Source of the DNA: a virus
Virus record (IMG/VR): IMGVR_UViG_3300017971_000058
Coordinates: 1 to 55,863 of that record
Strand: one strand, 5' to 3'
Length of the DNA: 55,863 bases
Below are positions 23,846-54,782 of the stretch, piece after piece. The notes under the pieces were generated by a model. It had not been told where the DNA came from. It ran no database searches and saw nothing but the letters and a program-made list of their open reading frames with translations. Each line of letters begins with the position of its first letter. The first letter of the stretch is position 1. Both the position numbers and the translations under genes were made by a program.

Positions 23846-24152
23846 CGGACCACTCGTAGAAGTACCCGTAGCGGCGCTCGAAAATCCGGCCGCGTACTTC
23901 GCGGCTCCACTTCACGGCCTCGGCGGTGCGCTCGGGCGTGTGCTCCATCTCGGCGAGCCTGGCGAACCCTTCCGGATCCTCGGCTCGCAGATCGTCCTCG
24001 GTGATGCTCCAGTAGTTGAGCGAGTCCACATTGATCTCGTCGGTGCCTCCACGCTGCTCGATGTGCTGCACGCAGTCCTCGAACTGGTCGAGCATGCACA
24101 GACCAGCGACAGCAGCGGCCACGAAGAAGACCAGGAGTAGTAGGTATCTCAT
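23838..24152 (-). CDS. Membrane-anchored acidic protein
   Basis: 104 residues; hydrophobic N-terminus (MRYLLLLVFFVAAAVAGLC) is a membrane anchor or uncleaved signal, followed by an acidic domain with SLNYWSITEDDLRAEDP. Cys18 in AGLC could act as a lipobox (AGLC is imperfect). Overlaps the next gene by eight bases and the GGDEF gene by ATGA. Confidence 0.6.
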   Translation of the reverse strand: MRYLLLLVFFVAAAVAGLCMLDQFEDCVQHIEQRGGTDEINVDSLNYWSITEDDLRAEDPEGFARLAEMEHTPERTAEAVKWSREVRGRIFERRYGYFYEWSDE

Positions 24153-24673
24153 TGTGCCTTGTCCTTGTGCTCAGTCTTGTTCATGTAGCATGCCACGTCC
24201 GCGGCGTCGGCATCCTTGCCGATGCCCGCGCTGGCAGTCACCACTCCGTCCTTGGAGGTCCAAGCCCGGATGGCCTCCTTGATGCGTCGCGCTCCGGAGC
24301 GCGTCTCTGTCCAGATCGTGAACTCGTCGCCGCCAGTGCGCGCAGCGAGGATGTCCCGTGCGCGCATGTCGTGGTGACGAGTGTTCTCCATGAGGAAGTC
24401 GGCGAACTCGACGAGGATCTCATCGCCGTACGCATGGCCGCAACCAGGCCGGTCCTGTGCTGCCTTGAAGTCGTTGAGGTCAGCGACCACGTACCAGCCC
24501 CAGTCCCGTCCTCGAGTCCGACGTTCCAGTCCTCGCCGGTTCAGCAGTCCAGTCAGGTCGTTCGTGTCTGCCGCCATCATGTGCTGGTCGGCACGCTCCT
24601 CTGCCTCACGCAGCGCCTCCTTCATCGCCACGAACGTGGTCTTGGTTAGAGCGTCGAGTTCGTCGTCGTTCAC
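24149..24673 (-). CDS. GGDEF-domain diguanylate cyclase-like protein
   Basis: 174 residues, essentially one GGDEF domain. Landmarks in order: DLTGLLNRRG (39-48), ADLNDFKAAQD with metal-ligand Asp65, GCGHAYGDEIL (78-87), intact catalytic RTGGDEF (112-118), VTASAGIG (145-152), and ADAADVACYMNK (155-166). RARD (104-107) resembles the product-inhibition I-site RxxD, here six rather than five residues before GGDEF. The usual Asn of FKxIND is Gln73. No sensory or membrane domain, so probably a soluble enzyme. If active it would make cyclic di-GMP or a related dinucleotide in the infected cell. Both neighbours overlap by ATGA. Confidence 0.85.
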   Translation of the reverse strand: MNDDELDALTKTTFVAMKEALREAEERADQHMMAADTNDLTGLLNRRGLERRTRGRDWGWYVVADLNDFKAAQDRPGCGHAYGDEILVEFADFLMENTRHHDMRARDILAARTGGDEFTIWTETRSGARRIKEAIRAWTSKDGVVTASAGIGKDADAADVACYMNKTEHKDKAQ

Positions 24674-25749: not shown

Positions 25750-25931
25750 GATTCCTCCGGGGCTGCAATTCGTGCCCAGCAAGCAGGACTCATGTAAGGT
25801 TGGCCGTTCTTGTCTTTCCACTGTTGGTCTTGCGACGAGAAGCGGACCACTCCATAGCTCCACCCATCCATGCTCTTCCACGCTGCCAGCAGCAGCACGT
25901 TCACAGGAGGGTTTCCTTTCTGCCAGTACAT
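25737..25931 (-). CDS. DUF551-like small protein
   Basis: 64 residues from ATG 25931, overlapping the barrel gene stop (TGATG). KGNPPVNVLLLAAWKS, SYGVVRFSS and the C-terminal WARIAAP resemble the DUF551 family of short phage proteins, which lack an assigned function. Confidence 0.5.
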   Translation of the reverse strand: MYWQKGNPPVNVLLLAAWKSMDGWSYGVVRFSSQDQQWKDKNGQPYMSPACWARIAAPEESWTQ

Positions 25932-26596
25932 CAGAAGCCCCAGGTCACGCCGACGAGTACGGAAAGGCCGTCGAGGTCGCCCTCGATCGTGTTGCCGTCG
26001 TCGTCGCTCACCTCGAAGTCCTCGGACGCGCGGTAACGGGCCTCGGCACCGAGCGCCCAGCGTTCGCTGATCTGGTAGCGTGCGCCAGTCTTGGCGTAGC
26101 CGCCGAGCTTGATGTCCTTGTCCGAGCCGCCGAGCGCCTCGACATCGACCAGCATGCAGTTGACGCCCGCGCCCAGGTAGGGGATGAGGCGTCCGTAGTT
26201 CCAGTCCTTGCGCAGGCCCAGGTACGCCTCGTAGGAGGTGAAGCTCACGTCGAACATGTGGCTCGGGCCGGTGGGCGTCATGGCGAAGGTCTGCGTGTCC
26301 TCCGTCCCGAAGAAGAAGCCCACCTCCGAGACGATCGGGAAGTTGGCGTTGCTGTCGAACTCGCCCGGCTCGTACACGTACTCGTACTGCACGCCGAAGG
26401 TGTCGGCGCGCACGTCGTCCTCGATCCTGTCGTCCTCGAACGCCTGCTGTCCGTAGTACACGGTCGCGGCTCGCCGCCCGGCGTTCTCCGGCGCCGGATC
26501 GACGGCGCGGATGGCTCGGTCCACGGACGCGCACGATGCGCAGATCCCGATGAGCACGGTCAAGATCACGGTCAGGGTCATGGTGTTGAGTCTCAT
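25931..26596 (-). CDS. Outer-membrane beta-barrel (lipo)protein
   Basis: 221 residues. N-terminal signal (about 1-20, TMTLTVILTVLIGICASC) with a possible lipobox Cys (ASC). The rest has alternating strands (FGVQYEYVYEPGEF, RLIPYLGAGVNCML, LGGYAKTGARYQ, WALGAEARYRA) and ends SVLVGVTWGF. A C-terminal Phe and repeated aromatic strands are the hallmark of eight-stranded outer-membrane barrels. A phage copy could alter the host surface, for example to exclude other phages, as proposed for lambda Lom and other phage-encoded outer-membrane proteins. Barrel call is from pattern only. Confidence 0.7.
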   Translation of the reverse strand: MRLNTMTLTVILTVLIGICASCASVDRAIRAVDPAPENAGRRAATVYYGQQAFEDDRIEDDVRADTFGVQYEYVYEPGEFDSNANFPIVSEVGFFFGTEDTQTFAMTPTGPSHMFDVSFTSYEAYLGLRKDWNYGRLIPYLGAGVNCMLVDVEALGGSDKDIKLGGYAKTGARYQISERWALGAEARYRASEDFEVSDDDGNTIEGDLDGLSVLVGVTWGF

Positions 26597-29869: not shown

Positions 29870-30334
29870 TCAGTTGGACGCGGCCTGCTCGAACATGCCG
29901 CGCGCTTCGTGATCGTGCTCGTAGCAGTCGCACGCCTCGGAGTAGTACAGCGGATCGAACGCCGACCCGATCTGGCGATCCTGCCAGTTGCCGTCGTACG
30001 AGTCCGGCCCCGTGATGGGCTCCACACCACTGGCGCGGATCACGGCGTTGGGGGCGATGGAGAACAGAGCCTCGAAGAAGTGGCCGTGAGCGTGCCAGCA
30101 TGCGCAACCGCCGATCCGGCGACGCTCGCCATCCTTGTTCCGGGAGAAGCCCCGACGGCCCCCGCGCTTCCGACAGTCGCGCACGCTCAGTCCGAACGAG
30201 ACCGAGCTGCGCGAGGTGCGGCCGACGTGTGCGGGTTCGGCCTTGAACTCCAGGTTCCCGGCGTAGTGGTCGTCATGATTGCAGAGTGCGAGCGCTTCGT
30301 GGAGCTGCTCGGGGGTGACGTTCTTGGCTTGCAT
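29870..30334 (-). CDS. Cys/His-containing hypothetical protein
   Basis: 154 residues, start MQAKNVTPEQLHEALAL, SD ACAAGGAC. Central GGCACWHAHGHFFEALF and later EACDCYEHDHEA supply several Cys/His that could bind metal. Among the first genes of the leftward early region. Function unknown. Confidence 0.6.
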   Translation of the reverse strand: MQAKNVTPEQLHEALALCNHDDHYAGNLEFKAEPAHVGRTSRSSVSFGLSVRDCRKRGGRRGFSRNKDGERRRIGGCACWHAHGHFFEALFSIAPNAVIRASGVEPITGPDSYDGNWQDRQIGSAFDPLYYSEACDCYEHDHEARGMFEQAASN

Positions 30335-30470: not shown

Positions 30471-30693
30471 GGTAGATGTCCTGTGTGTGGCGTTCATGGT
30501 CTCGAATCCGCGGAAGTCTACCCGCCCCTCCTATGGAAGGCAAACCCAGCGCGCTCCTGAGTGGATTGTTTCGACCTAAACCCCTGTCCCTGCCCGGGTT
30601 ACGTGCAAAACAATATCCCAGATTGTCCTGGCCAGGCGCCAGGCGCCCCCATCGCCCCCACCCGGGACAGGGGCGCCCCCACGATAGGGGCGC

Positions 30694-30732
30694 CGAAATC
30701 GGCCCTGGCGGCCCTGTGCGGGCCGATTTTCG
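30694..30732. repeat. Inverted repeat CGAAATCGGCCC / GGGCCGATTTTCG
   Basis: Twelve paired bases with one bulge around a 14-base loop. The 3' half, CTGTGCGGGCCG, is repeated directly at 30905-30916, in both cases 16 bases after ATCGGCC (30698 and 30889). Confidence 0.7.
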
Positions 30733-30738
30733 CCGATC

Positions 30739-30877
30739 GCCCCCATCGCCCCCATGTTTGCATCCCATACGGGGTCGGGTGTGGTGTGCTTGTGTCTGTG
30801 TGCGGGTGTGTGGGTGTGTATGTGGAGGACAGCACAGGACCCCCCGTATGGGATGCAAGGATGGGGGCGATGGGGGC
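30739..30877. repeat. 36-bp near-perfect inverted repeat with GT-rich loop
   Basis: Arms at 30739-30774 and 30842-30877 are complementary at 34 of 36 positions (mismatch only at the GT/CC pair in the middle). The 67-base loop is dominated by GTGTG on the plus strand. Candidate origin, recombination site or long RNA stem. Confidence 0.85.
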
Positions 30878-30956
30878 ACTTTCGTATAATCGGCCTTCCT
30901 GGTACTGTGCGGGCCGTTTTCAGGCGCCCCCACTTGGGGGCGGGTGGTGCTCAAGT

Positions 30957-30972
30957 GCCCCCATATGGGGGC
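30957..30972. repeat. 16-bp perfect palindrome GCCCCCATATGGGGGC
   Basis: Fully self-complementary. A related stem, CGCCCCC-ACTT-GGGGGCG, lies just upstream at about 30925-30942. Their shared CCCCCA/TGGGGG core recurs in the arms of the 36-bp repeat. Confidence 0.8.
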
Positions 30973-31049
30973 GATTAGGGGGCTAGAACGGTCATAAGTC
31001 CTTATAGGGTATGGTGTTAGGATCACTAGGGGCCCTGGGATCGGGCCGC

Positions 31050-31090
31050 CAGATCCGGGTACGGATCTGGATTGTTTTTCACACAATCCC
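31050..31090. terminator. Two adjacent stem-loops
   Basis: CCAGATCC-GGGTAC-GGATCTGG (from 31050) followed by GGATTGT-TTTTCAC-ACAATCC, overlapping by a few bases so they are mutually exclusive. They could terminate or attenuate transcription between the palindrome cluster and the promoter array, or bind a protein. No classic U-run. Confidence 0.35.
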
Positions 31091-31205
31091 CAGATCGCTC
31101 TGTGTTGCCCTGTGCGGCACGATCGCCCCTGGCCGACCCCTGAGTCGGATTCTCGGAGATCGTCGATTTTGAACCTTTTTTCCGCCCATTATTTCCTACC
31201 CGTCC

Positions 31206-31495
31206 TGGCACGGGTTTTGCTACGGAAAACGCCTGGCACGGCCCTTGCTACGGCCTTCAGGTGAGCGGCCTGCCTGGCACGCCCTTTGCTAGGGCCGTCC
31301 CTGGCACGGCCCTTGCTAGGGGGTTCTGTGGCACGCCCTTTGCTAGGCCCTGCCTGGCACGGGCCTTGCTAGGGCCTACCTGGCACACCCCTTGCTAGGG
31401 GGCACTTGGCACGGGCCTTGCTACTCGAGTCTTGGCACGCTTCTTGCTAGTGCATGCCCTGGCCTGGGGCCAAGCACTTGGCACGGGCCTTGCTT
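31206..31495 (+). promoter_or_regulatory. Array of ten sigma-54-type (-24/-12) promoter sequences
   Basis: Ten copies of TGGCAC-N5-TTGC at 31206, 31234, 31275, 31302, 31329, 31355, 31381, 31407, 31433 and 31479, all on the plus strand. Nine read TGGCACG-N4-TTGCT exactly; the seventh has TGGCACA. Nine of ten begin with a pyrimidine, as in the RpoN consensus YTGGCACG-N4-TTGCW. Steps are 28, 41, 27, 27, 26, 26, 26, 26 and 46 bases; the last long step hides a decayed copy (31460). The motif is direct observation. Use as promoters, a host sigma-54 sink, or another protein's iterons is open. The spacing is shorter than a polymerase footprint, so all cannot be bound at once. Confidence 0.85.
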
Positions 31496-31672: not shown

Positions 31673-31701
31673 TTGACTTCACCCCCGTTCCGTGTTACGG
31701 T
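31673..31701 (+). promoter_or_regulatory. Sigma-70-like promoter of terminase/fibre operon
   Basis: TTGACT (31673-31678), 17 bases, TACGGT (31696-31701). The -10 context CCGTGTTACGG matches CCGTGCTACGG of the leftward structural promoter at 2885-2913. Predicted start near 31709. Confidence 0.6.
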
Positions 31702-31739: not shown

Positions 31740-32801
31740 ATGCCCAGTCCGCACCAACAGGAGACCGAATCTCCCTTGCTCGACGCGTTCCTGCGCGGTG
31801 CGGAGCTACGCCGATTGCAGGGCGCGGAGCTGCGCGCGGCCCTGCACGAGGTGTGGACAGAAGGCGAACGGCCGCCCGCGGACCCCTTCGACCCGGAGAC
31901 CAAGCCGCTGCGCATCATGGTGATGTGGCGCCTCTGCCGGACGACCGCGATCGTGAAGGGCCTGTGCGCCGAGGACGAGACGCTGGACGCCGCGACCGAA
32001 CTCGAGCCGAACCCCTGGGTGGAACCCTTCCTTCCCATACTATCCGCAGCGGCTGGGTCGGCCCTCCGGCGCCAGCGCGCCGCGGCGCTGCTCCGCTACC
32101 ACGCCGAGGACCGGGGCCTGCCCCTCCTACCGCCCCGCGCCGAGCCGCGCGAGCTCGCCCGATGGTGCAACGCCGCAAGCATCGTGGCCGCGGACCTGGG
32201 GATCGAGAGGACCGCTGAGGGCCTCGCGGGACTCCAGGGGCTGCTCGACCCGCACCAGTGCGCCCGATGCGACGTGTCCGCGGCCGAGGTGCTGGCGTTC
32301 GAGGAGATGCTGCTCGCGGAGACGCTCGACCTGCTCCTGGACGCTGGCGAGCGCGCGACAGTCAAGCACTTCAAGGGTGAGTACGGCTTCGCGCACAAGG
32401 AGGCGAACGGCCTGCTGCGCGTCGTGAAGACGCAGGCGCTGGAGCGGTCGGCGGCGAGCATCGAGGAGAAGCGCGCCCTCCAGGAGATGCGACTCGAGGA
32501 CTTCATCGGTCGGTCCAAGGAGTCCCTGGACATGGACGGCGAGATGAAGGGCATCAAGGAGCTGGCGAAGATCCAGGGCCTGACACGCACCGAGCCGGAG
32601 AACCAGGCCGAGGAGTTCTTCGCAGTCGTGAAGCGCGTGGCCGAGCGACAGGATAAGGAGCAACTCGACGAGAAGACGCTCAAGCTCTTGGACGGGCGGC
32701 GAGCGGAAGAAGTCGAGGCAGTCGTGCTCGAACCGGAGCCCGACGACCCGGACGACGCCGAAGCGTTGGCCGAATTCGACAACGAGAACCAACACCGATA
32801 G
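31740..32801 (+). CDS. Possible terminase small subunit
   Basis: 353 residues, first gene of the rightward block. The N-terminal half is helical (LLDAFLRGAELRRLQGAELR), the middle has a HTH-like FKGEYGFAHKEANGLLRVVK (about 214-233), and the C-terminus (EMKGIKELAKIQGLTR, then EEFFAVVKRVAERQ) resembles the C-terminal region of small terminases. An acidic tail follows. Position, operon with TerL, and pattern make small terminase the best guess, but I am not certain; it is longer than most. No ribosome-binding site is visible before the ATG. Confidence 0.4.
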   Translation: MPSPHQQETESPLLDAFLRGAELRRLQGAELRAALHEVWTEGERPPADPFDPETKPLRIMVMWRLCRTTAIVKGLCAEDETLDAATELEPNPWVEPFLPILSAAAGSALRRQRAAALLRYHAEDRGLPLLPPRAEPRELARWCNAASIVAADLGIERTAEGLAGLQGLLDPHQCARCDVSAAEVLAFEEMLLAETLDLLLDAGERATVKHFKGEYGFAHKEANGLLRVVKTQALERSAASIEEKRALQEMRLEDFIGRSKESLDMDGEMKGIKELAKIQGLTRTEPENQAEEFFAVVKRVAERQDKEQLDEKTLKLLDGRRAEEVEAVVLEPEPDDPDDAEALAEFDNENQHR

Positions 32802-32809
32802 GTGCTACC

Positions 32810-33121
32810 ATGAGCAACCAATTCCAACCCCTCTTCGACGCCATGGAGTCCGGCGTCAGGAGCATTCTCGACCAACTCATCGACGGCACTGTCGAAGACC
32901 TCGACGGCCCGATCAGGGACATCGCCTCGCGCCTGACCCTCGCGGCCCGACGCAACCGCATGGACCTCGTGGAAGCGTGCCAGGATCAGCTCAAGGTCAT
33001 CGTGATCGAGAAGGAGCTGGTGCTCAAGAGCGGCACCTCCGGCTTCTTCGACACCGTGATCTCCGTCGGCATCAACGCCCTCATCAACGGCGCCATCGGG
33101 GCGCTCAACTCGCAACGCTAG
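32810..33121 (+). CDS. Hypothetical protein upstream of tail fibre
   Basis: 103 residues, start MSNQFQPLFDAMESGVRS. Helical, ending with a hydrophobic stretch (FFDTVISVGINALINGAIGA, about 79-98) that may insert in a membrane or bundle. Could be a virion or fibre-associated protein. No family recognised. Confidence 0.6.
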   Translation: MSNQFQPLFDAMESGVRSILDQLIDGTVEDLDGPIRDIASRLTLAARRNRMDLVEACQDQLKVIVIEKELVLKSGTSGFFDTVISVGINALINGAIGALNSQR

Positions 33122-33133
33122 AAAGGGACCAAC

Positions 33134-35350
33134 ATGACACGCCCGCAGAAGCCTGAATTCATCGGGAACCCGAACAACGACCTGGACCTCGCTGCATACG
33201 AAGAGGCTGTACGCCGATGGGAGGAGGCGTGCAAGGTGTATGATGCCAACCTGCGCAAGGCCGCGGGCGAGCCGACGATCGACGACGCGCTCAAGCAGAT
33301 GACCGACGAGAAGGCCGGGCCGCCCGGCCCTCCCGGTCTCGATGGTGTGAACGGTGCACCCGGCCCGGAAGGTCCCGAGGGACCGGAGGGACCGGCCGGT
33401 GCTGACGGCGCCGACGGCGAAGACGGAGCCGAGTGGTTCGTCGGATCCGGCGCGCCCAGCGCAGGGCTCGGCGTGGACGGGGACTTCTACCTGAACAGCG
33501 ACAACGGCGACGTGTACAAGAAGGCTGGCGGCTCCTGGGGCAGCCCCGTCGCCAACATCAAGGGAGCCGACGGTGCAGACGGTGCTGATGGCGCCGACGG
33601 TGCGGACGGCTCGGTCTGGTACGAGGGCACGGGCGCTCCCGGCGCGGGCCTCGGCGTGGACGGCGACTTCTACCTGGACGACGCGACCGGCGACGTGTAC
33701 CAGAAGTCGGGCGGTTCCTGGGGCGTCGTCGCGAACATCACCGGCCCGACAGGCGCAACGGGCGCGGCCGGTGCCGATGGCGCGGACTGGTACAGCGACC
33801 CGACCGATCCCAGTACGCTCTACAACGACGGCGACCACCACATGAACACGGCCTCGGGGGAAATCTTCGAGCAAGTCAGTGGTGCGTGGGTCTCGCAGGG
33901 CACCCTCGACATGGAGGACGCAAAGCAAGACCGCGAGAACGGTATCGTGGACATCACCGAGTGCGAACTGGTGTTCGTGGACGGCACGCGCCAGGTCCAG
34001 ATCCAACCCTTCACCACCTTCTTCGAGTATTACCACGACGGTACCTACTACAAGGAGACCGGCACCCTGACTGTGGTGATTCCGGATGTCGAGGGCCTGC
34101 ACTGGGTCTACATCGACGGTGCTACGCTTTCTAGCACCCAGGTGTTCGACGAGTCTCTCATCATCGACGAAGTGCTCGTTGCTATCGCCTACTGGGATGC
34201 GACGAACAAGACCTTCATCCGCGAGGGAGACAAGCGTCACGGAGCCATCATGGCTTCTGCCACGCACCGTGCCGCGCATTTCACCACAGGTCCGGCTTAC
34301 AGTCTCGGCTTTGGACTTGGCAACATGGACGTGGACGGCAGCGGGAACAACGCATCTGCTGCGAGGTTCTCGGTCGCGGACGGGGACTACTACGACGCCG
34401 ACCTGAAGCACGCCATCAAGGACAACGCGCCCCAGGAGCTTTCGACCATCGCCGAGATTCCGTTGTTCCACCGCAGCGGGGCGAGCGGCGACTGGCGCAA
34501 GGTCACGGCCACCACGTATCCGATCACGACCACGGGCACCGGGCGCGCGGCGTGGAACGAGTTTACGGGCGGGTCGTGGGGCCTCTCCGAGGTCGCCAGC
34601 GGTGACTTCGTGCTCGTCCACTACTTCGCCACCAACGACAAGGTGGAGCCCATCATCGGGCTCGTGGGCCTGGACACGTACAGCGATATCCGCATGGCGC
34701 GAGAAGGCGCCGCGGCCGAACTGGACGCGTTGCGCGACGGAGTGTATCAGGGCCTGATCCCGGACAGTATCCCGATCGCCACAGTGATCTGGGAGACCAA
34801 CTCTTCGTACACCAACGCAGTCAAGTCGCGCGTGCGCTCCACGCACCGGGACGAGGACTACGTGGACTGGCGAGACACGCTGGGTGACGAGAATGTCCCT
34901 GGGCCGGACCTCAACGCCAACAAGGCGATGCAGTACCGGAACACGGACAACTCGACCAACATGAACGTGACGGGCGGGGTGCCCGTGCCGCTGTTCGCTA
35001 CAGCGGAACTCACGCACCCGGACTTCACTCTCACGAGCGCGACGCAGATCACTTGCAACTTCGACGGCATAGTCGAGGTGAGTGGTTGTATCACCATCGT
35101 CACAGGAGTCACCACCATCCTCAACCTGGCTGCTGGTTACTTGCTGAACGGCACGCCTCTTGCGGGCTACGGCGGTTCTCAGCCGATGCAGGCTCCTGCC
35201 CTTGCCTTCGGCTCCATCACGGTGCCGACCCGTCGCATCGCCGTATCCAACGGCGACACGATCGGCATTTTCGCAATCCGTCTCGGCGGTGCCGGGTCGG
35301 TTCTTCAGATCAACAACCTCTCCTGGGGCCTCGTCAAGAGGATCTCCTGA
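33134..35350 (+). CDS. Collagen-like tail fibre / receptor-binding protein
   Basis: 738 residues. N-terminal helical base (about 1-60), then Gly-X-Y collagen-like runs (GPPGPPGLDGVNGAPGPEGP, GADGADGADGADG, GPTGATGAAGADG) alternating with a repeated module GLGVDGDFYL-(N/D) ... GDVYKKAGGSWG at about 107-140 and 165-200. The C-terminal 500 residues are beta-rich without a recognised domain and probably form the receptor-binding trimer. Collagen-like stretches are typical of trimeric phage fibres. Encoded with terminase, well away from the other tail genes. Confidence 0.8.
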   Translation: MTRPQKPEFIGNPNNDLDLAAYEEAVRRWEEACKVYDANLRKAAGEPTIDDALKQMTDEKAGPPGPPGLDGVNGAPGPEGPEGPEGPAGADGADGEDGAEWFVGSGAPSAGLGVDGDFYLNSDNGDVYKKAGGSWGSPVANIKGADGADGADGADGADGSVWYEGTGAPGAGLGVDGDFYLDDATGDVYQKSGGSWGVVANITGPTGATGAAGADGADWYSDPTDPSTLYNDGDHHMNTASGEIFEQVSGAWVSQGTLDMEDAKQDRENGIVDITECELVFVDGTRQVQIQPFTTFFEYYHDGTYYKETGTLTVVIPDVEGLHWVYIDGATLSSTQVFDESLIIDEVLVAIAYWDATNKTFIREGDKRHGAIMASATHRAAHFTTGPAYSLGFGLGNMDVDGSGNNASAARFSVADGDYYDADLKHAIKDNAPQELSTIAEIPLFHRSGASGDWRKVTATTYPITTTGTGRAAWNEFTGGSWGLSEVASGDFVLVHYFATNDKVEPIIGLVGLDTYSDIRMAREGAAAELDALRDGVYQGLIPDSIPIATVIWETNSSYTNAVKSRVRSTHRDEDYVDWRDTLGDENVPGPDLNANKAMQYRNTDNSTNMNVTGGVPVPLFATAELTHPDFTLTSATQITCNFDGIVEVSGCITIVTGVTTILNLAAGYLLNGTPLAGYGGSQPMQAPALAFGSITVPTRRIAVSNGDTIGIFAIRLGGAGSVLQINNLSWGLVKRIS

Positions 35351-35351
35351 C

Positions 35352-35498
35352 ATGAAGCGCTACAAGAAGCTGCTCATCGCGCTCGCGGCCATCGCGAGCA
35401 TCTACATCGTGAAGGCCACCGGCCTTGACCAGGGCCTCATTGACGACGTGCTCGATGCGGCGATCGAGGCAGTCACCGAAGCCCCGGCCGAGGAGTAG
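35352..35498 (+). CDS. Small membrane-anchored protein
   Basis: 48 residues: MKRYKKLLIALAAIASIYIV is a positively charged start plus one transmembrane helix, followed by an acidic helix ending APAEE. The ATG follows the fibre stop by one base. Size and topology would fit a pinholin- or spanin-like helper, but nothing specific supports that. Confidence 0.55.
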   Translation: MKRYKKLLIALAAIASIYIVKATGLDQGLIDDVLDAAIEAVTEAPAEE

Positions 35499-35501
35499 AT
35501 C

Positions 35502-35789
35502 ATGGACTTCAACTGGATTCGCCATGACCTTCTCAGAGGCGCGGGCCATAGTACGTCGGCAGCAGGGAAGCGTTCTGTGCATACCGTAGTGGTCACTTCT
35601 ACGATGCGGCAGGGCGAACTGCTCAATCGGCTACACGGTGTGAAGACAGCATCTCTACAGCAAGGAGCTAACGGCTTCTTCCGAGGCCGCCCGGTTCCTG
35701 TAGTGTTCGATACCGAAGCCGTGCAGACGATCGTTGCGTCGTACGAGGCCGAGCTGGACAAGCTACGCAAGCAACTTGGAGTGACCTAG
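35502..35789 (+). CDS. Hypothetical protein
   Basis: 95 residues, start MDFNWIRHDLLRGAGHS. Conserved-looking motif TMRQGELLNRLHGVKTASLQ and a C-terminal helix (EAELDKLRKQLG). No family recognised. Confidence 0.55.
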   Translation: MDFNWIRHDLLRGAGHSTSAAGKRSVHTVVVTSTMRQGELLNRLHGVKTASLQQGANGFFRGRPVPVVFDTEAVQTIVASYEAELDKLRKQLGVT

Positions 35790-35790
35790 C

Positions 35791-36369
35791 ATGGGAGTCG
35801 GACTCGAGACCCTGTTCCACCTCATCTACGAGCTCGTTCACTGGATCGTCTCGTGGATCGTCCCTCAGTATGGCGTCGTCGAGGCGCAGGAGATGGGCGT
35901 GAAGGTGACAGGGCCTCGGGTCAAGGAACTCAAGCCGGGCGGCTACTGGCAGCACCGCCAGCGCACGACGGTCTACAAGGCCAACGTGAAGCGAGTGGTG
36001 CGCGAGCCCGCTGACGTGATCGCGACCACGAAGGACGGCCACTCTGTCCGTGTCGGGATCTCGTTGGCGTTCATCATCACCAACATCAAGACGTGGCTCA
36101 TCGACAACGAGGACGCGGAACAGGGCCTCCTCGTGGACGTGCAACGAGTCGTGCTCAAGTTCGTCAGGACGCACACGTTTGACGAGATCCAGGAGCACGA
36201 CGAGGACGACCTCACCAAACTCGCGCAGAAGGAACTCGGTCGCTACTTCGGCGTGCAAGTGAAACAGCTCGGCATCACGACGTTCGTCGAGACCGAGTGC
36301 CGCGACCTCAACCACTCCGGCAGCCTCGACGCGAGCGCCGGTATTTCCGAGGAAGAAGAAGACGAATGA
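35791..36369 (+). CDS. SPFH/band-7 (stomatin-like) protein
   Basis: 192 residues. A hydrophobic N-terminus (about 5-28, LETLFHLIYELVHWIVSWIV) is followed by an SPFH-like domain: VVEAQEMGVKVTGPRVKELKPGGY with the shortened core GVKVTGPRVKELKPGGYW, VRVGISLAFIITNI, LLVDVQRVVLKFVR, and a helix LTKLAQKELGRYFGVQVKQL. This order matches stomatin/HflK proteins, which scaffold membrane microdomains and regulate FtsH. An acidic tail (EEEEDE) ends it. Rare in phages; could organise lysis or modulate host membrane proteases. Overlaps the lipoprotein gene by ATGA. Confidence 0.65.
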   Translation: MGVGLETLFHLIYELVHWIVSWIVPQYGVVEAQEMGVKVTGPRVKELKPGGYWQHRQRTTVYKANVKRVVREPADVIATTKDGHSVRVGISLAFIITNIKTWLIDNEDAEQGLLVDVQRVVLKFVRTHTFDEIQEHDEDDLTKLAQKELGRYFGVQVKQLGITTFVETECRDLNHSGSLDASAGISEEEEDE

Positions 36370-36767
36370 AGCATCTGCTGATTGCTCTGAGCCTCGCGCT
36401 CGCTTCGTGCGCGGGAGTGCAGCCCGGCAACGTGCCGATCGCGGAGGGCTCGGTTGCCCGAACCATCGAGCGCGTGCTGGACCGCACCGAAGCCTACGCC
36501 GCGGAGGACAGCCTCGAGTTCGACAGGGAAGTCGCGGTCTCGATCGAGCACGCCCGCTCGGTGCTGCTGGTGCCGGAGGCGAGCGGGGCCTCGTTGCGGA
36601 GCTACCTGGCCCCGCTGATGAGCCTGCACGACCTGCTGGTCTCGGAGCGCGGCGCCGACGGCCGCCTCGAACAGCTCGAAGTGGACGTATATCTGGAGGA
36701 CACCGCGCGCCTCCGCTCTCTGTTCGACGCCGTGAACATCTACGCAGCGCCAGCCTTGGCGCCCTAG
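36366..36767 (+). CDS. Lipoprotein
   Basis: 133 residues. Signal MKHLLIALSLALASC has a textbook lipobox (LASC, Cys15). The mature part is helical and acidic (ERVLDRTEAYAAEDS). Next to a one-span coiled-coil protein (36772-37092), so an outer-membrane spanin partner is possible, though the order is the reverse of lambda Rz/Rz1. Function unknown. Confidence 0.65.
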   Translation: MKHLLIALSLALASCAGVQPGNVPIAEGSVARTIERVLDRTEAYAAEDSLEFDREVAVSIEHARSVLLVPEASGASLRSYLAPLMSLHDLLVSERGADGRLEQLEVDVYLEDTARLRSLFDAVNIYAAPALAP

Positions 36768-36771
36768 TCCT

Positions 36772-37092
36772 ATGATGCAGCTCCCGGAAGACTACGTGCC
36801 CGAATGGGCGAAGTACATCATCGCGACCGTTCTCGGCGCAGGCGGCCTGCACTGGTTCCGCGTCTGGTTGGAGTCTCGACGGCTCGCGAAAAAGGACTTC
36901 CGGGAGCTGCTGCTGGACCGAATCCGTGAATTGGAGACGGTGGTGGCGAACATGCAGAAGCGGATGGGCAACCTGCGGGTGGAGATGGCCCATCTGGAGA
37001 CGGAGAACATCCAGCTCAGGCGCCAGCTTGGGCTCGAAGAGGAGAATCACCGTGTTGACGAACAGGAGGAAGGAGGAAGCGTCGATGGATAG
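36772..37092 (+). CDS. Membrane protein with coiled coil (possible i-spanin)
   Basis: 106 residues. One transmembrane helix (about 13-31, WAKYIIATVLGAGGLHWF) followed by a coiled coil (about 40-92, LLLDRIRELETVVANMQ and HLETENIQLRRQLG). That topology is the one expected of an inner-membrane spanin or holin-like helper. Its 3' end overlaps the start of the next gene by eight bases. Confidence 0.55.
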   Translation: MMQLPEDYVPEWAKYIIATVLGAGGLHWFRVWLESRRLAKKDFRELLLDRIRELETVVANMQKRMGNLRVEMAHLETENIQLRRQLGLEEENHRVDEQEEGGSVDG

Positions 37093-37597
37093 CCTGCGCA
37101 GCCCGATGGACTTGTGCGAACGCCTCGGTTTGAGGCCGATGGCGGCGCAACTCTCCATCATGCGCCGCTTCTACGAGGGTGAGAACCCCCTCCAAGCCCC
37201 CGAAGTTCCCAACGAGAAGACAGTCAACGCCGTCGCGGTGTGCGCACTGTGGCGGCTGCTGTCCATCCCAGGCTCCCGATGTGTGGTCATCGGGTCGAGT
37301 CGCGACCTGGAGGGCCGCTTCATGGGTATCCTCCACGAGATCACGACCAAGGTGGACCCGATTCTCGCCTCTGTGTGCCGTTGGACGAACAAGCGAACGC
37401 TCAAGGTCGGCGACGCGGCTGGGCACGAGCTGCGATTCGTGTCGAATGTGCCTGAATGGCTCCGGTGCATGGAAGAAGGGCCGACCACGTACGTGGTTTT
37501 GGGTGCTCGAAGCTCTGATACTAATTTTGTAGACGCTTCGAGGATCATCGAGAGCTACGACGGACTCAGAGGAGCCCGCCACATCATCGTTTGGTAG
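37085..37597 (+). CDS. TerL-like ATPase paralogue lacking Walker A and nuclease
   Basis: 170 residues from ATG 37085, SD AGGAGG. The segment EKTVNAVAVCALWRLLSIPG then RCVVIGSSRDLEGRFMGIL aligns by eye with GKTAASAIVALWRCLRYPD and LCIVTSPSMRQCKQWIDE of TerL, its immediate downstream neighbour. The P-loop GKGPGKT is reduced to NEKT, and the acidic Walker B and nuclease domain are missing. It is therefore a degenerate partial copy, possibly a regulatory or structural partner of the terminase, or a remnant of duplication. Similarity is visual, not scored. Confidence 0.55.
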   Translation: MDSLRSPMDLCERLGLRPMAAQLSIMRRFYEGENPLQAPEVPNEKTVNAVAVCALWRLLSIPGSRCVVIGSSRDLEGRFMGILHEITTKVDPILASVCRWTNKRTLKVGDAAGHELRFVSNVPEWLRCMEEGPTTYVVLGARSSDTNFVDASRIIESYDGLRGARHIIVW

Positions 37598-37600
37598 CAG

Positions 37601-39058
37601 ATGGGGCGCTTCTCGCGACAATTCGAGCCTCTCTACGAGCGTTGGCGCTCCGATATCCGCGTCTTTGCTCGGGAGGCGATGAATTTCGACTACACCTGGC
37701 AGCAGGAGGAGCTGTTCGACATCGTACAGCTCGAATCCTGGCTCCCAGTCGAGAAGCGGCTCAAGCGAATCGCTGTCCGCTCCGGAAAAGGGCCTGGAAA
37801 GACGGCCGCGTCGGCGATTGTGGCGCTGTGGCGCTGCCTGCGCTACCCCGACGCGCTCTGCATCGTCACTTCGCCGTCGATGCGCCAGTGCAAACAGTGG
37901 ATCGACGAGTGCTCCCGCCTTTTGAAGGACGCGCACCCCGTCTTGCAGAAGATGGTGAAGTGCTACGGCACCAAAGTCGAGATCAACGGCTCGAAGCTGT
38001 GGGGAATCCGCACCGCCACGGCCACTAGGCCGGAGAACCTCCAGGGGATCCACGAGAAGCGCCTCACGTTCATCGCTGACGAAGCCTCCGGCGTCGCGGC
38101 GAAGATCATGCAGACGATCAAGGACACGCTCTCCAACCCGGACGCGCTGTTCCTGGCGATCGGCAACCCGAACACGAGCTCGTGCGACTTCTACTCCTAC
38201 TTCACGGCGAACGCTGAACAGTGGCACCGCCTGTGCTGGAACGCTGAGGACACGGCTCGGGACTACCCCCACCTCCTCTCTCCCACCCGGAACAAGCAGA
38301 TCGAGTGGGAATTCGGCCGCGACAGCGATCAGTACCGCATCGCAGTCCTCGGCGAGTTCCCTCACGAGGACCCGAACAACGTCATGGGCCTGCGGGACCT
38401 GACGATCTGCACCAAGACCAGTCTGCTGGGCTGCGCGGGCATCTTCGACATGCTGCGCGTGAACAAGGCCATCGGAATCGACTACGCGCGCTTCGGTGGG
38501 GACGAGTCGGTCATCGCGCGCCGGGCAGGGCTCGCCATCGTGGACTTCGAGACGTTCGTGAAGACCGAGCCGATCCAAGTCACCGATCGGGCCTTCGCGA
38601 TGCAGCGGGATGCCAACTGGCGCGATGCGGACTGCTGGTACATCCCGGATGCGGGCGGGATGGGCCAAGGCGTCGTCTACTCGTTCCACGAGGGCGGCAA
38701 GAACGTGCTGGAGTTCCACACGCAGGCTCGCGCGTACGACAGCGCGATGTTCGCCGACCTCTACTCTGAGGCGTGGTGGATGTTCCGCAACCTGGTGCGC
38801 GAGCACATCGTGCGCATCCCCAACGACGCGCGGCTGCTCAAGCAGCTCTCGACGCGTCAGTACTACACCGACCGCAAGGGGAAGCTCAAGGTCGAATCGA
38901 AGGACGAGTGGCGGAAGCGCATGGAGATCAGCGAGTCTCCCGACCGCGCCGACGCGATCGTCATGGCCTTCTACCCGCACCTCGGTGAGGAAGGCGCCCT
39001 GATCCAAGCCTCTCGCCACCACCACATCGTCGGGACTCGAGCCCAAAGGAGCCGCTAG
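37601..39058 (+). CDS. Terminase large subunit
   Basis: 485 residues. ATPase: Walker A SGKGPGKT (61-68), Walker B LTFIADEA (155-162), motif III AIGNPN (187-191). RNase H-like nuclease: GIDYARFGGDESV with Asp294, PDAGGMGQGVV, and a last Asp in SPDRADAIVMAF near 455. It translocates DNA into the prohead through the portal and cuts the concatemer. Unusually its gene is some 21 kb from the portal on the left. Overlaps the following GTG-start gene by one base. Confidence 0.95.
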   Translation: MGRFSRQFEPLYERWRSDIRVFAREAMNFDYTWQQEELFDIVQLESWLPVEKRLKRIAVRSGKGPGKTAASAIVALWRCLRYPDALCIVTSPSMRQCKQWIDECSRLLKDAHPVLQKMVKCYGTKVEINGSKLWGIRTATATRPENLQGIHEKRLTFIADEASGVAAKIMQTIKDTLSNPDALFLAIGNPNTSSCDFYSYFTANAEQWHRLCWNAEDTARDYPHLLSPTRNKQIEWEFGRDSDQYRIAVLGEFPHEDPNNVMGLRDLTICTKTSLLGCAGIFDMLRVNKAIGIDYARFGGDESVIARRAGLAIVDFETFVKTEPIQVTDRAFAMQRDANWRDADCWYIPDAGGMGQGVVYSFHEGGKNVLEFHTQARAYDSAMFADLYSEAWWMFRNLVREHIVRIPNDARLLKQLSTRQYYTDRKGKLKVESKDEWRKRMEISESPDRADAIVMAFYPHLGEEGALIQASRHHHIVGTRAQRSR

Positions 39059-39459: not shown

Positions 39460-39999
39460 TCAGAGCGCGACGGAGGCGTACAGGGTCGTGCCGTCGCTGT
39501 AGACTCGAGCCGTGGACCCGATGGCGAGCACCAGGGGCGTGCCCGCGCCCCCGCCGTTGATCTGCTCGGTGCCGTTGGGGTCCAGGTTCAGCGTGCCGGA
39601 GGTCATGTCGTTCCGGATCTCGACCGTGCGCCCGGCCCAGCTCGCCGCGGCGAGGAAGTCGTAGTCGAGCGTGCCGGTGCCTGTGAACCTGACGAAGGCG
39701 TCGCCGATGGCCTGCGTGGTGGTCGCTGAGAGGCCATTGAGGTCGCGCTTGTAGTCGGAGTACGGGATCCAGTTCGTGCCGTCGCTCCAGTAGAGCGTCC
39801 AGCCGAGAGTCGTGTGATCCACCCACACGAAGCAGCGGTCGTAGGCCGCGGCAGCGAAGGTGCTCTGGAGATCCGTCTCGTCGCCCGTGTGCTCGTGGAT
39901 CGGGAAGGGCGCGTTGAGGATGGCCTCGTCGTTGTCGTCGATCTTCTGGTGCCAGTTCTGGATGCCAGAGTCAACGTCGTTCTTGGTCGGTCGTCCCAT
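39460..39999 (-). CDS. Distal tail / virion surface protein
   Basis: 179 residues, start MGRPTKNDVDSGIQNWHQ. A helical N-terminus then beta-rich repeats typical of phage appendages (WTLYWSDGTNWIPYSDYK, GTLNLDPNGTEQINGGGAG) and a C-terminus ARVYSDGTTLYASVAL resembling the end of trimeric tail-fibre tips. Last gene of the tail operon. Host recognition role is a guess. The 115 bases to the terminator hold nothing I recognise. Confidence 0.5.
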   Translation of the reverse strand: MGRPTKNDVDSGIQNWHQKIDDNDEAILNAPFPIHEHTGDETDLQSTFAAAAYDRCFVWVDHTTLGWTLYWSDGTNWIPYSDYKRDLNGLSATTTQAIGDAFVRFTGTGTLDYDFLAAASWAGRTVEIRNDMTSGTLNLDPNGTEQINGGGAGTPLVLAIGSTARVYSDGTTLYASVAL

Positions 40000-40011
40000 G
40001 ATTGCCTCCTG

Positions 40012-42906
40012 CTAGACGCGGGTGATCGTGAGCGACGGGCTCACGGGAGATGAGTAGCTGTTCGCGATGTGAGTCACGCGGACCTTGAAGGCCGAGGGCT
40101 CGACACCGAACGCCGCCACCAGAGCAGCGTTCGTGATCTCGTACTCGGACACGACGTTCGCATCCACGCTGATTGTGCTCTGCACGACATCACCTGTCGT
40201 GAGCAGCTCGATCTGCACCGTGCCAGGGATCGTGGGCGAGCCGACGGCCACGCCCGCGGACTGGCCGCCCGCCCCTGTCTGCTTGGTGCCGGTCGAGATC
40301 GCCCAACTTACCGTGATGTCGTCACCAGTCTGGAAGGCCGGGACGTTCTTGTACGGGGCACGGACGTGAACGTAGTCGGGCGCGATCGGGACCTGGCCCT
40401 TGCCGATGATCTCACCCCCCGCCGGACCGACCGCGGACAGGTTGACCTGGCCGCCGGACGTGCCGGGCTGCGACTTGACCCAGAGATCCTCCGTGGGCTC
40501 CAGGAGAGCGTCGGTGATTTCTGTGACGGCCGAGGCGTCGATGATGTAGACGGTCGATCCGATCGGGTGGGCGAGCTTGCGCGTGTCGTAGCAGGCGCGT
40601 GCAAGGCCATCGAGGCGGCGGGTGGTGCCGCTGACGATGGTGGTCTTCTGCACGATGCAGATTTCCACCCCCGCGCTGGATACGATGACCGCGAGTTGCT
40701 TGCCCAGGCCCCAGCTCGTGAGGTCCGCGGAGTAGTCCGAGACGGTGGAGTTGTCCGGCCCCAGCTCGGAGAACTCGATCGACTGATCCTCGTAGCTCGG
40801 GCCGTCGGCCGCGAGGGCCTCCGTAGTGGTGCCCCCAGTCTGCACGTTCAGGTCGTTGACCGCCAACGTGTACGTCACATCGTCGCGAGAGATGTGGATG
40901 GACGAGAAGCTGGTCTCGCTGTTGGCACGAATGCGCGGCACCATGATGTACTGCGTGGCCGGGAAGGTCGTGCCGAGAAGCTGCTCCGGGATTTCCAACC
41001 AGGTGAAGGCTTCGTCCTGTTCGGGATCCTGCGGCGTACCCGGGGTTCCCCCCTGTCCGGTCTGGAAGTCCGACAGCGGGACGCCGTAGAAGTCCGGGAT
41101 GACCTTGAGCTGTACGCGCTCGGAGAGAGGGTCCACTTCAACGGACAGGACGCGAAGAATCTCGTCGAAACCCTCTGCCGTGATCGCATCGCCGGGTAGA
41201 AGGTCGCGGGCTTCGCGCGAGGCGTCGAGTCGGAACTGCGCGCCCGGAGCCAGCTCTTCGGGAGACCGCAACTCGGAGAGCGACGCTGCCGTGGCGAAGA
41301 GCGTGGTGGACACGATCGGGACCTTGCGCGACCTCTGGTGCTCCATGTAGGCGGCTTGTCCGTCCTCGTCCACCGCGATCGTCATGTCCCCATAGGAGTT
41401 CTCCCGGTCGCTGAACGAGAAGATGAGCCTGTCCACGGGGTGCTCGCCGTGGACGGTCTCGATTTCAGGCAGCCGATCTGCGTAGATGTCCTCCACGAAC
41501 GCAGGCAGAGAGCCCGACGGAAAGCGCACTCGCTGGAAGAGAAGGTTGCCGGTGGCGGTGTCGATCGGCAGCATCGTGCCGTGGTCCTGGAGCATGGAGC
41601 CCAGCAGGGCTTCGGCGGTCTCACCCTGCGAACCGAGCACGGCTGCTCGCCACTCGTTCGTCTCGGCTTCCACGCCCAGGTCTTCGAGGGAGTCGGTGTC
41701 CCACTTCTCGACAAGGTGGTCCGGGTCGAGTTGAAGTCCCAGAGGGAAGTCAGCGAACAGCAGCTCGCCAATGACGTGCGCGATGTTCGCGCCGTCGGTC
41801 TCGTCCTCTTCGTAGAGCTGTATCGTGCCTGTGGCAGTCGCTCCCAGCGTACCCCCTTGCAGGAACACGCGGGTTTTCGTGCCGTAGATGTCGAAGCCTT
41901 GGTAGTTGGTGCCGATAACCACCAGGGCGGTCTCTGCTCGCAGCACTTCGTAGGTGCCGTTCGGCATCCCCACGCCCACCAGTTCAACGTCGAAGAGCGG
42001 CTTGAACTTGTTGGTCCGGTCGCCTGCGACCTGGATGTACCCGGTGTCTTCGTTCGCGTTGGCGAGCACGGCCTCGACAGCGTAGGTCGGGCCGGTCAGC
42101 GTGCGGTTGGGCTCGTACCAGCCGTCGGACTGTGTGAGTCCTGTCCACGACGGGCGCCGCTCCACCACGTAGTCGATGATGCCCCACGTCTGCCCCGTCA
42201 TGCGCTTCTTGTTCCAGACGACGTAGCAGGCGTGCGGCCATCGCGAGCTGACGGTCACGCGGTTGGCGTTGCCGAGGAAGCTGTTGACGGGCTGGTCAGG
42301 CTCGCCCCAGTAGATCGTGAAGGAACCCTCCTTGCCCAGGTTGATGGTGGAGCCGCTCGGGTGGGACTCAGAGGAGATGGGGCCTGTGAAGATGGCCTTA
42401 CCTCCTTGGATGATCTGATGCAGGGCGTACATCGGGCCGATGCCGAGGACGTGCCACCCTGCTTCGTAGTAGACATCGACCTCGGGAGCGTCACCGCCCT
42501 TGCCGCCTTCGGTCTTCTCCTTGCGGATCTCTCGGTCGCCCGCCCAGCAGAACACCGGGCCCACGCGCCGGATGCCGACGTGCCAGTTCGTGAACGATCC
42601 TCGAGTCGTGAGCGTGGTGGGTTTGTCGGACTGGATCGGCGAGTCGTTCTTCTTCGCGAGCATCTGCCCGGCAAGCAGCGACAAGCCGATCGAAACGACG
42701 AGCCACGCGAGCTGGACCCAAGCCTGCTGCACTCCCGGTTCGACGGCGGGAGCTTGGCCGAAGGGCTCTCCGAAGCAGAGAATGCAGCCCGCGATCAGCA
42801 CGTTCACACCGAGCAGCCCCTTGAGCCAGAATCGGCCGCGGTCGCAGTTCCAGTTGTAGGTCACGTCGTCCACGCGACGCCAGAGCCATTGAGCTACTCG
42901 CTGCAT
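40012..42906 (-). CDS. Tail tip / host-specificity (TipJ-like) protein
   Basis: 964 residues from ATG 42906 (MQRVAQWLWRRVDD), chosen for the GGTGGGGCAG upstream. Two hydrophobic helices near the N-terminus (about 30-46 and 62-83) are typical of TipJ/baseplate megatron proteins. Beta-rich domains follow, including WGIIDYVVERRPSWTGLTQS, and a tail-tip hub pattern FPSGSLPAFVEDIYADRLPE. The C-terminal ~90 residues look like a fibronectin-type fold. It forms the hub of the tail tip, downstream of the NlpC/P60 protein, as in lambda J and gene transfer agent gp15. Overlaps the NlpC gene by 13 bases. Confidence 0.75.
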   Translation of the reverse strand: MQRVAQWLWRRVDDVTYNWNCDRGRFWLKGLLGVNVLIAGCILCFGEPFGQAPAVEPGVQQAWVQLAWLVVSIGLSLLAGQMLAKKNDSPIQSDKPTTLTTRGSFTNWHVGIRRVGPVFCWAGDREIRKEKTEGGKGGDAPEVDVYYEAGWHVLGIGPMYALHQIIQGGKAIFTGPISSESHPSGSTINLGKEGSFTIYWGEPDQPVNSFLGNANRVTVSSRWPHACYVVWNKKRMTGQTWGIIDYVVERRPSWTGLTQSDGWYEPNRTLTGPTYAVEAVLANANEDTGYIQVAGDRTNKFKPLFDVELVGVGMPNGTYEVLRAETALVVIGTNYQGFDIYGTKTRVFLQGGTLGATATGTIQLYEEDETDGANIAHVIGELLFADFPLGLQLDPDHLVEKWDTDSLEDLGVEAETNEWRAAVLGSQGETAEALLGSMLQDHGTMLPIDTATGNLLFQRVRFPSGSLPAFVEDIYADRLPEIETVHGEHPVDRLIFSFSDRENSYGDMTIAVDEDGQAAYMEHQRSRKVPIVSTTLFATAASLSELRSPEELAPGAQFRLDASREARDLLPGDAITAEGFDEILRVLSVEVDPLSERVQLKVIPDFYGVPLSDFQTGQGGTPGTPQDPEQDEAFTWLEIPEQLLGTTFPATQYIMVPRIRANSETSFSSIHISRDDVTYTLAVNDLNVQTGGTTTEALAADGPSYEDQSIEFSELGPDNSTVSDYSADLTSWGLGKQLAVIVSSAGVEICIVQKTTIVSGTTRRLDGLARACYDTRKLAHPIGSTVYIIDASAVTEITDALLEPTEDLWVKSQPGTSGGQVNLSAVGPAGGEIIGKGQVPIAPDYVHVRAPYKNVPAFQTGDDITVSWAISTGTKQTGAGGQSAGVAVGSPTIPGTVQIELLTTGDVVQSTISVDANVVSEYEITNAALVAAFGVEPSAFKVRVTHIANSYSSPVSPSLTITRV

Positions 42907-43430
42907 CTGCCCCACCTTTCCTTGTCGTCGATTCTGTAGATGGCGTAGAGCACTTGGCTGTCCAAGAGCGACCACCCCCCTTGGTGGAAACCAGCGCCAG
43001 GCAGCGCGTGCCATAGCTCGTTGGGTCGCGTGCCGACGATCTCGACGTGCCCGGGGCCTCCTCCGGGCTCGCCGGTCGTTACGATGTCGCCCGGTTCGAC
43101 CTCGAACATGCGCTCGTCGTTGGCCTCGACCTTGTGGCACGGCGAATAACGCCGGACGAGCTCGCGCACGGCCGCTATGGCCCCGGCGCGATCGTGCATG
43201 CTGGCGTCGTAGGGCATTCCGGGGAAGGCAGCTCGTTCGCGGCCGTCGATCATGTCCACGACGCCGAAGATGCCGCCAATGCAGTCACACCCGCGCTGGA
43301 TGAAGCGCTGGCCTGACTCGTACGGGGTGCCCTCCCACTCACGCAGGGCCTCGCCCAGCGCCTTGCGAGCGTTGAGGGTCAGGTCGCCGAGAGTCCACAC
43401 GAGGCGAGGGCGGTAGACGCGAACGGTCAT
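42894..43430 (-). CDS. NlpC/P60 tail-tip peptidase
   Basis: 178 residues from ATG 43430, overlapping the upstream stop as ATGA. Catalytic Cys lies in RGCDCIGGIFG, His in GPGHVEIVG, the NlpC/P60 arrangement. In siphoviruses the protein of this position (lambda gpK type) cleaves peptidoglycan peptides during DNA entry. Between the DUF2163 hub and TipJ genes, exactly as in gene transfer agents. Confidence 0.8.
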   Translation of the reverse strand: MTVRVYRPRLVWTLGDLTLNARKALGEALREWEGTPYESGQRFIQRGCDCIGGIFGVVDMIDGRERAAFPGMPYDASMHDRAGAIAAVRELVRRYSPCHKVEANDERMFEVEPGDIVTTGEPGGGPGHVEIVGTRPNELWHALPGAGFHQGGWSLLDSQVLYAIYRIDDKERWGRCSE

Positions 43431-44269
43431 TCTTCCACCTCGTAGTTCGGCTGGTGGGCCGGGATGGAGTACCCAAGCCCCATAAACCATTCCTCGGCGT
43501 TGTATCGTGCCCGACACGTCTCCACGGTCTTGTCGCAGCCCGACACGAAGTGGATGTCGTTCGAGCCCCCGATCCAGTCAGTCGGAACCGGCCGAGCCAT
43601 GTAGAGCTTGGTGGGGTCGGCGTCGCCGTCGTAGTCGCGGATCGCGATGCGTAGTCCGTCCTTCTCGGCGTAGCCGCGCTTCCAGTAGCGGGCGTCGGCG
43701 GCGCCAGGCACCGTGACGCTCGTGGAGGTCACGGTGATCTCCGTGCCGTCCTTGGAGTCGATGTCGCCCGTGGCGTCGTAGGTCCCCTCCACCACCTGAC
43801 ACCCGCCGTGGAACAAGGTCCAGCAACAGTGATGGTTGCAGGGCAGACCCATCGGGATGTCAAGGCGCGACTTGGCGGGCAGAGAGAAGAAGGCCACCTT
43901 GTCGTTCGCGCCCTGGTAGTTCTTGATGGTGCGCACGACCCGTCCGCGGTACAACACCTTCTGCGTGGACTGGTCGCCAGTGAAGAGCCCTTGAGTCAGC
44001 TCTTCGATGATGACGAAGATCGGCGAGTGTGGTGTGCCGCTGGATGCGCGAGTCGTGAAGATGTCGGTTGGCAGGACAACACGCAGCTCGCGCTTGTCGA
44101 AGGTGCCCTCGTTCTCCGGAATCGACAGCGACATGCGCGGCTCGGAGGTGGCGCTCAGGTACTCCTGATCCCAGTCAGTGTACTTCTCTTGTGTGGCAAG
44201 GCTGGGGCCGTGGAAGAAGGTTACGAGAACGAACCCTTCCTTCTCCGGTCTTGCGTATGCCTTCACCAT
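43427..44269 (-). CDS. DUF2163 / BR0599-like tail hub protein
   Basis: 280 residues. The pattern GLPCNHHCCWTLFHGGCQVV and FVSGCDKTVETCRARYNAEE is the Cys-rich signature of the DUF2163/phage BR0599 family, which forms the tail hub next to an NlpC/P60 protein in gene transfer agents and related siphoviruses. Six Cys may bind Fe-S or zinc, as reported for tail hub proteins. Coupled to the NlpC gene by ATGA. Confidence 0.8.
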   Translation of the reverse strand: MVKAYARPEKEGFVLVTFFHGPSLATQEKYTDWDQEYLSATSEPRMSLSIPENEGTFDKRELRVVLPTDIFTTRASSGTPHSPIFVIIEELTQGLFTGDQSTQKVLYRGRVVRTIKNYQGANDKVAFFSLPAKSRLDIPMGLPCNHHCCWTLFHGGCQVVEGTYDATGDIDSKDGTEITVTSTSVTVPGAADARYWKRGYAEKDGLRIAIRDYDGDADPTKLYMARPVPTDWIGGSNDIHFVSGCDKTVETCRARYNAEEWFMGLGYSIPAHQPNYEVEE

Positions 44270-44278
44270 GATTGCCTC

Positions 44279-45916: not shown

Positions 45917-45930
45917 ACCCTCGGGCCTCG

Positions 45931-48119: not shown

Positions 48120-48121
48120 GG

Positions 48122-52806: not shown

Positions 52807-52841
52807 CGTGTCATCTGCCTTGATGTTGAGTGGAGGGATGA

Positions 52842-52861
52842 CCCGGGGCCGAAGCCCCGGG
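52842..52861 (-). terminator. UUCG-loop hairpin after tail tube gene
   Basis: On the minus strand CCCGGGGC-TTCG-GCCCCGGG, an eight-bp stem with the very stable UUCG loop, 21 bases past the tail-tube stop. No U-run. Such hairpins after major tail genes reduce downstream transcription or protect the upstream message. Confidence 0.65.
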
Positions 52862-52881
52862 CCTTGAAGCCTCGGTTGGAC

Positions 52882-53748: not shown

Positions 53749-53778
53749 GTTGGTGTCTCCGTAGAAGGGTTGCAGTAG

Positions 53779-54213: not shown

Positions 54214-54215
54214 GA

Positions 54216-54776: not shown

Positions 54777-54782
54777 GTCGGG

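Follow-up and report, generated by a model that had tools for sequence, protein, structure and literature searches.

What role might ten sigma-54 (RpoN)-type promoter sequences, set in a row on a single strand, play in the genome of a phage? The question is raised by the IMG/VR virus record IMGVR_UViG_3300017971_000058, which was analysed in its entirety (55,863 bp, 64.5% GC; hereafter the window). A pattern scan of this record identified ten exact matches to TGGCAC-N5-TTGC, all on the + strand of one short stretch (Table 1), and none elsewhere in the whole 55.9-kb record. Nine of the ten sites conform to TGGCACG-N4-TTGCT, the exception being site 7, with an A instead of the G, while the TTGCT ending is common to all ten. 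These counts match those given in a preliminary description of the locus. The near-constant step of 26-28 bp also claimed there was only partly upheld, as seven of the nine start-to-start steps (28, 41, 27, 27, 26, 26, 26, 26 and 46 bp) fall within this range and two gaps are longer. Identity between the units amounts to 98% in the motif columns, versus 50% in the internal N4 and 39% in the flanks, indicating divergence of the units everywhere but in the motif. Coding repeats were rejected as the source of the array.

The phage identity of the record is confirmed by the terminase large subunit (TerL), portal, major head, major tail, tape measure and DNA polymerase proteins (PHROGs/Pfam); its TerL shares no more than about 32% identity with those of cultured phages. 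The major head protein, tape measure and tail genes (39460-55845) and the replication genes (about 5.6-30.3 kb) are encoded on the - strand, while a portal-like gene lies on the + strand at 2915. A further + strand block (31740-39058) encodes a 353-aa protein, a collagen-like tail-fibre protein and TerL, and the array is localised in the non-coding stretch between the divergent gene blocks. The 353-aa protein, for which there is no family match, is possibly small-terminase-like. Its start codon is separated from site 10 by 246 bp, with a sigma-70-like promoter in between.

Table 1. Coordinates of the array, its ten sites and the neighbouring features in the window.
Feature	Position	Strand	Basis or remark
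Whole array, ten TGGCAC-N5-TTGC sites	31206..31493	+	exact matches and independent matrix
Site 1 TGGCACGGGTTTTGC	31206..31220	+	exact match, matrix score 19.2
Site 2 TGGCACGGCCCTTGC	31234..31248	+	exact match, matrix score 17.9
Site 3 TGGCACGCCCTTTGC	31275..31289	+	exact match, matrix score 19.9
Site 4 TGGCACGGCCCTTGC	31302..31316	+	exact match, matrix score 17.9
Site 5 TGGCACGCCCTTTGC	31329..31343	+	exact match, matrix score 19.9
Site 6 TGGCACGGGCCTTGC	31355..31369	+	exact match, matrix score 16.2
Site 7 TGGCACACCCCTTGC	31381..31395	+	exact match, matrix score 17.3
Site 8 TGGCACGGGCCTTGC	31407..31421	+	exact match, matrix score 16.2
Site 9 TGGCACGCTTCTTGC	31433..31447	+	exact match, matrix score 20.1
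Site 10 TGGCACGGGCCTTGC	31479..31493	+	exact match, matrix score 16.2; sole site with a same-place counterpart in L116/L118
Sigma-70-like promoter TTGACT-N17-TACGGT before the + operon	31673..31701	+	by eye; similar in relatives
353-aa protein, first gene 3' of the array	31740..32801	+	no family match
Collagen-like tail-fibre protein	33134..35350	+	annotation
Terminase large subunit (TerL)	37601..39058	+	phrog_2
Nearest predicted gene across the gap, unannotated, transcribed away from the array	29870..30334	-	gene prediction

Several further features were observed in the record. Repeats of CGCCCCCA and TGGGGGCG occur at 30601-31205, in the same intergenic stretch as the array. The former is present there in six copies and nowhere else in the window, with similar repeats in the related locus L116, and the repeats are possibly sites for a second factor. 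A large inverted repeat (arms 30721-30790 and 30826-30895, 76% complementary) encloses a GT-rich loop, and a stretch resembling this loop is also found in L116. A 111-bp tandem repeat (2.8 copies, 45548-45852) lies within a tail assembly gene. The phage also encodes a predicted GGDEF-domain protein (24149-24673) and a predicted outer-membrane beta-barrel protein (25931-26596), the latter hinting at a Gram-negative host. The protein encoded at 7700-9013 contains a dGTP/dATP diphosphohydrolase domain according to Pfam and also matches a PHROG labelled as an endolysin inhibiting RNA polymerase; the two labels conflict.

The resemblance of the sites to sigma-54 promoters was evaluated with an independent matrix derived from 28 Salmonella sites known to be occupied in vivo (sequences from PMC3844500). 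Scores of the window sites lie between 16.2 and 20.1, all within the leave-one-out range of the known Salmonella sites (13.4-20.2), and no other position in the window attains the 16.2 of the weakest array site. Simulated windows contain on average 0.24 sites of array-level score, which, together with the N4 and N6 spacing controls below, rules out a chance origin of the array. With two mismatches permitted, the motif is about as common as expected by chance.

Triple same-strand arrays with the N5 spacing were found in 101 stretches of public viral contigs, versus one for N4 and none for N6. These stretches fall into about 50 nucleotide clusters, taken as lineages, with GC contents ranging from 32% to 63%, and the genes near the arrays vary, including different terminase families, portals and a DNA polymerase. 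The alternating-strand pattern (+,-,+) is present in at least 120 viral stretches, versus none for the N6 control. Two viral clusters (L040/L097 and L044/L068) proved to be coding repeats and were excluded. Many IMG/VR contigs are fragmentary, and the arrays are frequently located at contig ends. Blastn searches of phages and plasmids with the array and a consensus array recovered no cultured phage with an array, although such searches are weak for sites of 15-18 bp, and nine named records found through their relatedness to array phages contain no cluster.

Among 84,980 prokaryote genomes (257 Gb), only 15 triple-array matches were observed. The steps in 11 of these are multiples of three and thus fit coding repeats, which is the likely nature of most of the 15. 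Of the four with other steps, L133 and L146 are near-identical short repeats and L144 is possibly a phage contig. The fourth, L135 (4457-4529, on the contig of a Sphingobacteriales MAG), contains the same array as the viral locus L016, suggesting that a phage sequence was probably binned with the bacterium.

A consensus was derived over 48 lineages with equal weights, in which the columns left free by the search are informative. TGG is preceded by Y (0.77), CAC is followed by G (0.79) or A (0.20), the spacer shows A-T-T-C tendencies and TTGC is followed by A (0.45) or T (0.42). The array consensus, YTGGCAC(G/A)-ATTC-TTGC(A/T), is that of sigma-54, while the flanks of the units carry almost no information in other lineages. 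When related arrays are compared, 1.0% of positions differ in the motif cores versus 19.3% in the rest, and without the three sites causing each hit the substitutions amount to 1.4% and 17.4%, respectively, a conservation contrast of about 12-fold. Although the compared pairs lack phylogenetic independence, the contrast is a large one. As the free columns follow the consensus and the cores are conserved relative to the rest, recognition by sigma-54 is strongly suggested. Both hallmarks of such elements, GG and TGC elements at a fixed spacing (YTGGCACG-N4-TTGCW) and a dependence on the exact spacing of the boxes, seen in the direct and alternating scans alike, are present. On the basis of consensus, spacing, matrix score and conservation, the sites are very probably genuine, strong sigma-54-type elements, although this is inferred from sequence alone, without binding data. 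The N5-specific scans, the free columns and the independent matrix thus support the preliminary description, which had called them RpoN -24/-12 elements. It knew of no described phage with such an array and was unaware of the recurrence in dozens of lineages now found.

Two layouts could be distinguished. Direct arrays advance in steps of 24-29 bp (mode 26), while alternating arrays show offsets of 18-21 bp (mode 19), with the -12 boxes facing, and of 20-25 bp (mode 22). For same-strand steps, which were sampled evenly between 20 and 48 bp, values of 20-23 bp are absent and those of 30-39 bp rare. In most records nearly all exact sites are confined to one stretch. Long ORFs are avoided, with 12 of 52 arrays inside them versus 29.9 expected, and divergent intergenic gaps are favoured (14 of the 32 loci for which both neighbours are known). 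Where the flanking genes are co-directional, the direction of the sites agrees with them in six cases and disagrees in ten; the ORF calls underlying this comparison are crude, with spurious ORFs chosen in the window itself. All ten window sites point toward the + operon. Neither a sigma-54 DNA-binding domain nor an activator domain above the cut-off was detected in the 50 array records searched, with two weak partial activator matches below the cut-off, and a phage-encoded sigma-54 or activator was thus not found in these records.

Twenty loci were gathered as relatives of this phage on the basis of TerL, and the comparison was limited to those covering the matching intergenic region. A scan of related phages had been proposed as a check on the locus, and it shows relatives with one site or none. 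L116 and L118 each contain one exact site, at the position of site 10, and L128 has one near this position on the opposite strand, while no sigma-54-type site occurs in the matching intergenic region of L120, L126, L130 and L155. The landmark CGCGCGGG is retained in the aligned relatives despite the absence of the array, and gene order is preserved without it in the relatives. Those sharing TerL and the 353-aa gene carry one or no site, and the array is thus dispensable. Judged from the relatives, it is likely a lineage-specific expansion rather than a fixed part of this phage type, and the proposal that the whole array is a conserved trait of the type was dropped, counterparts existing for site 10 only. 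Other short repeated or palindromic motifs occupy the same gap in array-free relatives (L120:1-240, L126:1-700, L128:4500-4560 and L155:2250-2700), and it is possible that this gap collects different site arrays across relatives.

Four functions, namely recruitment of sigma-54 to the structural genes, its titration, a transcriptional block and iterons for another protein, had been suggested for the array without being ranked. The genes downstream begin with the 353-aa gene, followed by the tail-fibre-like gene and TerL. The evidence now favours, by inference, recruitment or titration of the host sigma-54 polymerase over ordinary promoters, because the arrays often alternate strands, their direction ignores the genes and no activator gene was found; iterons of an unrelated protein are disfavoured. 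The best explanation, about as likely as not to be correct, is a DNA sponge acting in trans, by which host sigma-54 RNA polymerase would be held in inactive closed complexes. The binding is supported by sequence alone, and the titration is inferred. Closed complexes of this polymerase are stable and inert until an activator acts, and sigma-54 is used by the phage-shock response (PMC3844500), while artificial arrays with spacers of 10-30 bp function as sponges (PMC7686491). In the phage, the polymerase would occupy the ten sites as stable closed complexes, with the 26-bp step, about 2.5 helical turns, possibly allowing adjacent complexes to fit next to each other on opposite sides of the helix. 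These complexes would remain silent without an enhancer-binding activator, a gene for which was not found in the phage. As the phage genome replicates, its sites would exceed the host sigma-54, and host sigma-54 promoters would be starved of polymerase during infection. E. coli contains only about a hundred sigma-54 molecules, so that a few tens of phage copies with ten sites each would be enough. By inference, the array probably grew from one ancestral site (site 10) before the terminase/tail-fibre operon and is maintained by selection for binding.

The sponge reading is in line with the clustering of many strong predicted sites for one host protein, and it is supported by the alternating-strand arrays, which are at least as common as direct ones and are not explained by a one-way promoter. 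Against it, all ten window sites face the + operon as promoters would, the array is dispensable in relatives, and a sponge of the simplest kind would not need a narrow preferred spacing. Salmonella lacking rpoN is protected from two phages, with glutamine accounting for part of the effect (PMC8744999), suggesting that a shutdown of sigma-54 need not benefit a phage.

Clustered sigma-54 promoters remain a possible, though less likely, alternative. The ten sites would increase occupancy in front of the terminase/tail-fibre operon and be fired by a host enhancer-binding protein, tying late expression to the state of the host, such as nitrogen supply or envelope stress. The uniform orientation of the window sites, the preference of arrays for divergent gaps and the counterpart of site 10 in L116 and L118 are in keeping with this. 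However, the last site lies 246 bp from the start codon, with a sigma-70-like promoter between, sites in other phages alternate in strand and are directed independently of the genes, and a single site would be enough. No activator was found in the phage, although one supplied by the host is not excluded. An unlikely alternative is a block in cis, with parked sigma-54 polymerase insulating the divergent blocks, stopping read-through or maintaining a repressive region until its removal by an activator or by replication. The position of the array between these blocks and the avoidance of long ORFs would suit such a role, but intragenic sigma-54 binding in E. coli did not reduce expression of the carrier genes (PMC4591121), and relatives have the same gene order without the array.

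The sites might also serve a different protein, of phage or host origin, as operators or iterons, or act as packaging signals close to the terminase genes, their resemblance to the sigma-54 consensus being accidental. The narrow, regular spacing is iteron-like, and in 13 clusters the arrays have a TerL family gene nearby. This is nevertheless very unlikely, as about 50 lineages differing in genes and GC content share the sigma-54 consensus and spacing, and iterons or packaging signals should persist wherever relatives share the replication or packaging genes, yet the relatives of this phage keep the same packaging genes without the array. An RNA-level element, with the repeats forming hairpins in a transcript, is the least likely of the alternatives. 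In several window units an imperfect inverted repeat continues into the flanks, and the RNA fold has a z of -2.6, but flank information is almost nil in other lineages, where intact motifs without hairpin flanks are the common case, and there is no Rfam match above the gathering score.

In sequence, spacing and matrix score the window sites are like bacterial sigma-54 -24/-12 promoters, which are, however, normally single with an activator site upstream, whereas the phage carries ten in 288 bp and other arrays alternate strands. Synthetic DNA sponges (PMC7686491) likewise rely on repeated sites, separated by spacers of 10-30 bp, to lure a regulator from its targets, but are engineered on plasmids for other regulators, while the phage array is natural, viral and directed at an alternative sigma factor, its titration being only inferred. 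The datA locus of E. coli, a cluster of sites titrating the host protein DnaA, is similarly clustered-site DNA, but is chromosomal and DnaA-specific and serves here as a lead only. By analogy, the sponge, if correct, would act like such known titration loci. Mycobacteriophage L5 likewise contains numerous asymmetric sites for protein binding, the stoperators; these are bound by the phage repressor and scattered through the genome, while the window array is one cluster of a host sigma-54 motif. Inhibitors of host RNA polymerase made by phages, among them T7 Gp2 and Ocr (PMC3778932, PMC7064336), interfere with host transcription, as the array would, but are proteins rather than DNA sites. The open-access literature searched, which excludes subscription papers and preprints, yielded no description of phage arrays of sigma-54 sites, and a natural phage array of sigma-factor sites is likely new.

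A bolder reading, that many phage lineages have repeatedly evolved protein-free DNA traps for host sigma-54 RNA polymerase, silencing sigma-54-dependent responses such as phage-shock as the phage DNA multiplies, falls a little short of being probable. If true, it would mean that phages attack an alternative sigma factor by DNA alone, and that sigma-54, with its roles in nitrogen use, motility and the phage-shock response, is a common battleground of infection. The arrays may also flag phages whose hosts possess sigma-54. Even without a mechanism, conserved arrays in dozens of phage lineages, almost absent from bacteria, represent a new class of regulatory DNA that is easily tested.
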